Source of the DNA: an uncultured Nocardioides sp.
GTDB taxonomy: Bacteria > Actinomycetota > Actinomycetes > Propionibacteriales > Nocardioidaceae
Assembly: GCF_902805925.1 (NCBI RefSeq)
Contig: NZ_CADCUP010000115.1
Span: forward strand, 1-34,382
Reading direction: 5' to 3'
DNA: 34,382 nt
Below the pieces are notes generated by a model that saw only the letters and a list, made by a program, of their open reading frames with translations, searched no databases and had not been told where the DNA came from. The position numbers were made by a program, and so were the translations under genes. Below are positions 4,688 through 6,031 of the stretch, piece by piece; the first letter of the stretch is position 1, and each line of letters opens with the position of its first letter.

Positions 4688-5254
4688 TCAGGTGCGGCGC
4701 CGCCGGCGCAGCCAGCCGCGGGGCCGCTCCTCGGCGTCCTGGCGCTGCTGCTCGGCCAGCGCCCGGCGCTGCGCCTCCTGGCGCGCCGTACGACGCCCGA
4801 GCCAGGCCTCGACCTCGGCCTCCACGTCACGCTGCCGGGTGACCATGGCGGGCGCGGTCGGGCTGGTCGGCGGGGTGTAGAGCGCCTTGTGGACGCGCAC
4901 GTTGAACTCCTCGAGCTCTTGGCGCACGCCCTTCTCGGTGGTGATCCGGTCGAGCCGGTCGTCGAGCTCGGCGTCCTCCTTGCGGATCGCGAGGGCGGGT
5001 GGCAGCACGCCGGTGATCTGCTCGCGCTCGACCAGCTTCTTGACCCACCAGTCGGGGTCGTTGTCCTTGCCGAGGTCCTCGATGGGCTTGCCGTACCCGG
5101 GCAGGTCGTCCCACTCCCCGCGCTCGATGGCGCGCTGCACCTGCAGGTCGACCCACCTGGTCTGGTTGCTGATCCGCGCCGCCGCGGCGGACCGGCCCGT
5201 GCGCTCGTCGCGCGCGGGCAAGCGGTCCGCGGCGGTGCGCCGCTCCTCGCTCAT
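4688..5254 (-). CDS. DUF1992 (DnaJC28-conserved-domain) protein
   Basis: An 188-aa cytoplasmic protein with the DUF1992 domain, named after its presence in DnaJ subfamily C member 28; there is no J domain here. The conserved part runs from about residue 30 to 100. It includes WVDLQVQRAIERGEWDDLPG, YGKPIEDL (the family's G-x-GKP-L element) and the following NDPDWWVKKLVERE. The C-terminus is long, basic and Arg/Gln-rich, probably helical, ending in a run of Arg. The ATG at 5254 begins MSEERRTAADRL; an upstream in-frame ATG at 5311 would run into the inverted repeat and gives an atypical N-terminus. Molecular function of the family is unknown to me. Confidence 0.8.
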   Translation of the reverse strand: MSEERRTAADRLPARDERTGRSAAAARISNQTRWVDLQVQRAIERGEWDDLPGYGKPIEDLGKDNDPDWWVKKLVEREQITGVLPPALAIRKEDAELDDRLDRITTEKGVRQELEEFNVRVHKALYTPPTSPTAPAMVTRQRDVEAEVEAWLGRRTARQEAQRRALAEQQRQDAEERPRGWLRRRRRT

Positions 5255-5301
5255 GTGACGAGCGTACGTGGGGGCGGGGAGGCGCTGGCGGGCTCGCGCA
5301 C

Positions 5302-5389
5302 GGTTCATCATGGTATGCAGACCAATGCGCAGTTCCCACGGGGTGTACGTCGTGGGAACTGCCGGCTCACCGACATACCTTGATGAACC
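5302..5389. repeat. Nested inverted repeat, 88 bp
   Basis: The outer arms 5302-5317 (GGTTCATCATGGTATG) and 5374-5389 match in inverted orientation at 15 of 16 positions. Inside them, 5329-5340 (GCAGTTCCCACG) and 5351-5362 form a perfect 12-bp inverted pair around a 10-base loop. The element is clearly more AT-rich than its surroundings. It fills most of the gap between the nitroreductase stop (5402) and the DUF1992 start (5254), both on the minus strand. It could be a terminator-like cruciform, an operator for a dimeric regulator, or one copy of a dispersed palindromic (REP/MITE-like) element. The sequence alone does not decide. Confidence 0.8.
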
Positions 5390-5401
5390 AAACCGGGGCG
5401 C

Positions 5402-6001
5402 TCAGGACCAGCCCCCGCGGTGCACCACGTCGGTCCAGGGGGTACGGCGCCGCCGCGCGGGCGAGCCGGCCGCCCCGCCGTCGGCGCGGTGGCCGATGGT
5501 GATCGCGCCGATGGGCTCGTGGCTCTCGGGGACGGCGAACTCGCGGCGGACGTCGCCGAGGTGCTCCGGCGGGATCCCGAAGAAGCAGGCGCCGAGGCCC
5601 TCGTCGGTGACCGTCTGGAGGATCAGCAGGGAGGCCATCGCGGTGTCCAGGTGCCAGAAGGGCATCGACCAGCGCGCCTCGTCACGGTCGCTCCACCCCT
5701 TGTCGGGCTCGGCGTAGCGGTCGAGGTAGGCGGCCTTGCTCGAGCAGGGCAGCACCACCACGGGAGCGCGCATCATGCCGGCGAGCCAGGAGCTCGGGGC
5801 CGACGGGTCGGCGGTGCACCGCCAGAAGCGGCCGACGTCCTCGGGGGTGTCGAGCACCACGAAGGCCCAGCCCTGGGTGAACCCGGCGCTGGGCGCCCGG
5901 GTCGCGTTGGCGAGGCAGCGGTCGACGACGGCCGGGTCGACCGGGCGGTCGGCGTAGCTGCGGACCATGCGTCTGCGTCGTACGACGTCCTGGAACTCCA
6001 T
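5402..6001 (-). CDS. Nitroreductase family protein (FMN-dependent)
   Basis: A 199-aa NAD(P)H-dependent FMN oxidoreductase of the nitroreductase fold. The N-terminal RRRRMVRSY (about residues 8-16) is the usual FMN-phosphate-binding arginine motif. APSAGFTQGW follows near 37-46, and TDEGLGACFFGIPPEHL contributes to the flavin site in the C-terminal half. The length is typical. The ATG at 6001 lies directly before MEFQDVVRRRR, the normal family N-terminus. It is divergent from the M20 amidohydrolase at 6101, with a 99-bp shared upstream region holding a 14-bp palindrome. The natural substrate is not evident; mycobacterial homologues include deazaflavin-type relatives, but the Arg motif favours FMN. 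Confidence 0.85.
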   Translation of the reverse strand: MEFQDVVRRRRMVRSYADRPVDPAVVDRCLANATRAPSAGFTQGWAFVVLDTPEDVGRFWRCTADPSAPSSWLAGMMRAPVVVLPCSSKAAYLDRYAEPDKGWSDRDEARWSMPFWHLDTAMASLLILQTVTDEGLGACFFGIPPEHLGDVRREFAVPESHEPIGAITIGHRADGGAAGSPARRRRTPWTDVVHRGGWS

Positions 6002-6031
6002 GGGACGAGCATGCCCGGTCCGGCTGGACAG

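Follow-up and report, generated by a model that had tools for sequence, protein, structure and literature searches.

A dispersed palindromic element of Nocardioides occurs and varies together with a family of nuclease-like genes

The window, i.e. the whole 34,382-nt stretch of an uncultured Nocardioides sp. contig (NZ_CADCUP010000115.1) analysed here, contains a nested palindrome that separates a gene with a DnaJ-homologue C28 domain from a nitroreductase gene, both on the minus strand (Table 1). The palindrome described in the first-pass annotation proved to be real, with both arm pairs found where they had been placed: the outer arms of 16 nt are paired at 15 positions, leaving one mismatch, and surround an inner stem in which 12 of 12 positions are paired around a 10-nt loop. 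The gene setting and the AT-richness that had been claimed for the element were likewise confirmed, its GC content being 0.57 and that of the 300 bp on each side 0.74-0.75. The structure is far beyond chance. Folded as single-stranded DNA, it reaches -28.7 kcal/mol (z -7.3), with none of 200 shuffled sequences folding equally well, and the minus-strand RNA of the element folds with a z of -6.7. No T run, which is a feature of intrinsic terminators, follows the stem within 5200-5500.

Table 1. Coordinates of the palindromic element and its neighbouring genes in the window
Feature	Position	Strand	Basis
88-bp palindromic element, one of 11 genome copies	5302..5389	.	arm check, genome DNA search, alignment
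Outer arm with a consensus close to GSTTCATCAWGGTATG; single mismatch to the opposite arm	5302..5317	+	arm check, copy alignment
Inner stem, left arm	5329..5340	+	arm check
10-nt loop; middle TGCA in 9/11 copies, TGTA in window copy	5341..5350	.	copy alignment
Inner stem, right arm	5351..5362	-	arm check
Outer arm, opposite side	5374..5389	-	arm check, copy alignment
DnaJ homologue C28 domain gene; start 48 bp from element	about 4688..5254	-	PF09350, 7e-18
Nitroreductase-family gene, start approximate; stop at 5402, 13 bp from element	5402..6028	-	PF00881, 1e-21

When further copies were sought in the same genome (3.23 Mb, 234 contigs), as the first-pass annotation had proposed, a DNA search with the palindrome returned 20 matches at 11 places, i.e. 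the window copy and ten others that are about 72-80% identical to it. All 11 copies are exactly 88 bp long, align without gaps and share the same geometry; both ends consist of GSTTCATCAWGGTATG or a close variant, the termini, as read by eye, follow the pattern G-N-TTC..GAA-N-C, and a preferred flank, YT, is present on one side of every copy. In 10 of the 11 copies, the central arms carry CATGG (CATGC in one) on one arm and CACGG on the other, so that the central stem has an inbuilt mismatch, T.G on one strand and C.A on the opposite one. The corresponding columns 38/51 form a Watson-Crick pair in just 13 of 48 elements, 11 of which are the copies of this genome. This mismatch, as well as an internal loop of the outer stem at columns 17-18/71-72, recurs across genomes and is reminiscent of the bulge needed by E. 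coli TnpAREP, as described in excerpts from PMC8266576. Among the three alternatives that had been offered for the palindrome, that of a dispersed palindromic element is supported by these copies, whereas a structured RNA and a double operator are left as candidates; a known RNA family was rejected, as no Rfam family matches the window at the gathering threshold.

Two of the 11 copies, situated on another contig and 1.14 kb apart, enclose a single gene that encodes a protein of 313 aa, and pairs with about the same spacing in four further genomes (G010, G048, G148 and G173) each enclose a homologue of this protein. Its first half matches AbiEi models (PADLOC AbiEi, residues 11-179, 9e-15). The AbiEi_4 domain falls just below the Pfam cut-off in the protein itself (24.6 vs 25 bits), and is found in 35 of 40 homologues (E 0.1). 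Residues E204, D237, E248, D250 and K254 are invariant across the 40 homologues, and the C-terminal ones (D...ExDxxxK) may be read from the alignment as a PD-(D/E)XK arrangement resembling that of DUF559. Profile alignment with E. coli YcjD (DUF559) yielded an E value of 5.5e-4 at a low probability of 30, with D..EFDG aligned to D..ELDG, while the alignment with a Vsr profile was marginal (E 0.05); DUF559 is matched by 3 of the 40 homologues, and REase_MTES_1575 also by 3. The NCBIfam search returned nothing below E 0.1 for the protein, and solved structures searched by sequence gave nothing below E 0.4 and no convincing PDB relative. The N-terminal and middle parts resemble AbiEi, the antitoxin of the AbiE type IV toxin-antitoxin system, from which the protein differs in its additional, putatively nuclease-like C-terminal domain. 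No AbiEii nucleotidyltransferase toxin partner is encoded between the two ends, where there is only the single gene. A phage or plasmid origin of the gene was rejected, as there were no phage matches, one plasmid match at 27% and, in two alignments, no match among viral contigs. A partial relative of the putative nuclease, with 27% identity, is encoded on a Collinsella record of 900 kb that is catalogued as a plasmid (NZ_OY725717.1:412209-412760).

Bracketing of the gene by repeats extends to its relatives. Among 50 family loci, which are fetched homologues of 33-100% identity and represent a part of all matches (a short locus, L147, a split gene, L121, and loci repeating a gene already included were dropped), 47 carry a common, mostly inverted repeat in the 350 bp on either side of the gene, with scores higher than the 99th percentile of mismatched pairs. 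Many of these flank repeats are palindromic themselves, in two or three blocks. The three exceptions comprise L132 and L133, in which a palindrome of 88-92 bp is confined to one side, and the borderline L134. None of 299 random placements of the same size exceeded the cut of 28, the maximum being 17.5. In a draw of 118 genomes from the class, 29 carry such a gene at E 1e-40. With three short loci left out of this draw, the flank test was passed by 16 of 17 loci from other families, four of them barely above the cut (L182, L188, L189 and L194; L191 fails), and by 10 of 10 loci from the own family, two of which were already among the 50. Several side observations concern the ends themselves. The upstream end of the gene in G145 (L105, about 2520-2690) looks like several tandem element units, 171 bp of which can be aligned with the downstream end; the ends of seven loci of family f17 (L173, L174, L176-L178, L180 and L181) start with GAAATGATCACGTTC or a similar sequence, the long first hairpin seemingly missing. 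The genome that harbours the window also encodes a second, distant homologue of the putative nuclease (L123, G000:C169:14072-14962; 40%), which is bracketed by a different palindromic repeat.

A second element type was found with a query taken from the end of a G012 homologue that is only distantly related (40% identity). Counting both strands and overlapping pieces, the query gave 80 matches in G012, 73 in G022 and 53 in G190, and no matches in 21 of 35 genomes. This type occupies at least 26 separate places in each of G012 and G022, and the gene lies between two copies in G012, G022, G190 and G192. Nineteen solo copies of G012 share the left boundary, which is preceded by NTT in 17, and two of the nineteen (L205 and L206) have a further unit on the right. 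The termini of most G012 copies, as read by eye, are CAGCGATC..TGAC.

The palindromes differ between genomes, and solo copies match the gene ends of their own genome. When solo copies were compared with the gene ends of 19 genomes, 25 of 31 ranked their own genome first (24 of 30 when L036, a gene end in its own right, is left out); the failures comprise one copy each from G106, G001, G015, G192 and G008, as well as the window copy, which ranks its own genome third. With one solo copy per genome (n=19, L036 included), the mean match was 53.1 vs 23.9 after shuffling (0/20000). The R1 model of the element matches 20 of 59 genomes of the genus and 32 of 149 of the family (own genome included), with a patchy copy number. 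A close gene, defined by a cut of 275 bits that was picked after the scores had been seen, is present in 10 of 19 element-bearing genomes of the genus vs none of the 19 element-free genomes that entered the test out of 39 (Fisher p 4e-4). Elements are also present in every one of the 10 genomes of the family draw, again including the own genome, whose gene matches exceed 290 bits, vs 32/149 overall; the picture below 290 bits is mixed. Among element-bearing genomes, the median number of element matches is 18.5 with a close gene vs 4.0 without. Nine of the 19 element-bearing genomes of the genus, as well as G080 (28 model matches), lack a close homologue of the gene, possibly owing to gene loss or to a more distant partner. 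In G080, two fetched homologues (L120 and L121) have no adjoining element of the window type. The repeat family and the nuclease-like gene family occur and vary together. The palindrome of the window is, on balance, probably a solo, non-autonomous, REP-like copy, whose partner would be the AbiEi/PD-(D/E)XK-type gene bracketed by two copies.

The gene is found in conserved synteny in G012, G022, G007, G190, G192 and at one locus of G030, and among the solo copies examined (24 in each of G012 and G022), 17 of the 24 from G012 have an orthologous copy in G022, not counting L322, which shares only a neighbour. The conserved gene locus in six genomes, together with these orthologous copies, suggests that movement is slow. 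Orthologous copies are 95.1% identical and non-orthologous ones 90.0%, and the adjoining 40-bp flanks are 37-67% identical in 24 of 34 cases and 77-97% in 10 of 34, these values being ungapped at the best shift and thus lowered by indels, and part of the 'flank' being a further element unit in the L300, L302 and L303 pairs. One G012 copy is missing from G007, G019 and G030, while another is common to G022 and G030 and missing from G007 and G019. The conservation of orthologous copies, combined with such patchy absences, suggests that copies come and go slowly and that those present are maintained. No base-exact empty site was found for the window locus, whose neighbour genes are kilobases apart in the relatives compared by eye among the matches listed, nor for two G012 sites, at which the element is missing in some relatives and the intergenic DNA is too diverged for an exact junction. 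In a set of 40 elements, pairing is seen in 843 of 1040 cells of the outer arms (z 12.8 vs shuffled rows) and in 528 of 680 cells of the centre (z 10.7), and is weaker inside the 26-bp end units (z about 4); since the elements were recruited with a long-hairpin model, these counts do not separate one long hairpin from three short ones.

The position of the copies relative to genes raises the most serious alternative, namely that the elements are bidirectional terminators or 3'-end stabilisers of mRNA that spread long ago and were kept for this role, with the nuclease gene merely using two of them. All 11 copies of the own genome are intergenic and lie, by a crude gene caller, 2-31 bp from the 3' end of a gene; five have convergent neighbours and none has divergent ones. 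In nine stretches of this genome (the window and eight loci, L011 being left out), gaps of 30 bp or more are divergent in 20 of 46 cases when free of the element, and gaps containing it in 0 of 10. Similarly, among the 36 copies of G012 and G022 with both neighbours called, 27 are convergent, 9 tandem and none divergent, the same crude caller placing 10 of 48 copies in overlap with an ORF. Terminators would account just as well for this position behind stop codons, and the conservation of orthologous copies amid otherwise diverged intergenic DNA also speaks for them. However, the stem of the window copy is not followed by a T run, and a terminator has no need of a genome-specific primary sequence or a fixed length of 88 bp, nor of resembling the ends of a particular gene family. 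As a full account of the elements, the terminator role is considered unlikely, although it is compatible with a nuclease partner, as both can hold, and a terminator function may explain why copies are kept.

The AbiEi-like part of the protein suggests another explanation, in which it acts as a repressor or a regulator of the nucleoid type and binds at the scattered solo copies, which would form a regulon or a chromosome-organising set. The AbiEi_4 domain in most homologues, the fixed geometry of the elements and the maintenance of orthologous sites are all consistent with operators, but the copies lie behind stop codons, none of those whose neighbours are both called is flanked by divergent genes, and a regulator would not require invariant nuclease-type residues. 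This explanation appears quite improbable.

It is very unlikely that an unrelated transposase, now lost or encoded elsewhere, has mobilised the elements as MITEs or REPs, the nuclease being a passenger or defence gene: the 16-nt arms do constitute terminal inverted repeats, and the patchy copy number and the preferred flanks (YT and NTT) would suit such elements, but the target duplications predicted in the first-pass annotation are absent from 11/11 own copies and, by flank comparison, from 19/19 G012 solo copies of the related type, no HUH Y1 gene was detected in 20/20 element-bearing genomes (PF01797 being the only transposase family searched), and it is the nuclease family that is bracketed consistently. 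In control genomes, PF01797 was positive in 5 of 14, and a RAYT/HUH mobiliser was rejected on the basis of its absence from the 20 element-bearing genomes. With PF01797 as the only transposase family searched, the lack of HUH Y1 genes and of target duplications argues against the two standard mobilisers.

The reading of a solo palindrome with a bracketed partner gene has its closest counterparts in REPIN/RAYT systems and TIRtrons. In excerpts from PMC3116915, PMC8266576 and PMC3733652, REPIN/RAYT systems are described as dispersed extragenic palindromes of paired inverted units with an imperfect stem, whose gene is flanked by cognate repeats and in which repeat and protein co-vary. The Nocardioides system resembles the 'REPtrons' formed by REPIN/REP and RAYT (TnpAREP), as judged from the same excerpts, in that dispersed extragenic palindromes are cognate to a bracketed gene; it differs in that the enzyme appears, from its sequence, to be AbiEi/DUF559-like instead of an HUH tyrosine transposase, and in that the elements are 77-88 bp long and, as read by eye, carry no terminal GTAG or CGTC tag. 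TIRtrons, in an excerpt from PMC3733652, are RAYT-like genes that encode HUH tyrosine transposases and have long, partly self-complementary terminal inverted repeats, which also form repeat families. They share with the present system, as far as that excerpt describes them, a gene between inverted ends, some partly self-complementary, that are also found as repeat families, but no HUH tyrosine transposase is present in the genomes tested here. These two systems are the closest in logic, and membership fails on the enzyme and the terminal tag. In the parts of the cited papers relevant here, REPs have no dedicated partner enzyme other than the HUH tyrosine transposase, and for some REP families no partner is known (PMC3733652).

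A prior description of a repeat and nuclease partnership was not found among the best matches listed in a search of the open-licence literature with few terms. In Neisseria, the GIY-YIG nuclease Ssn is paired with dispersed palindromic repeats; it has a different nuclease fold and belongs to a different lineage from the present system, and no paper on it was found among the best matches listed in the open-licence literature.

If the protein is indeed the partner of the palindrome, it would presumably recognise it as a cruciform, a hairpin or a duplex, and its cutting could then cause the element to be copied, or transferred by gene conversion, from one intergenic site to another, after which solo copies would be retained as harmless, or helpful, hairpins behind stop codons. 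The nuclease may thus spread, maintain or only bind the palindromes. More broadly, and tentatively, stand-alone AbiEi-type PD-(D/E)XK nucleases and their cognate palindromes might constitute a two-part, vertically inherited system throughout this class of high-GC bacteria, in which the nuclease copies, converts or maintains genome-wide palindromes at the 3' ends of genes; such a system would parallel REPIN/RAYT but be driven by a nuclease, with an independent origin and a diversification into many pairs of repeat and enzyme.

Bacteria commonly carry REP-like palindromes, and a second, unrelated partner enzyme would, if true, indicate that the partnership of repeat and enzyme arose on more than one occasion. 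A role would also be suggested for a gene family labelled in libraries mainly by its AbiEi domain, and many natural repeat/enzyme pairs would become available in which recognition and movement may be tested.
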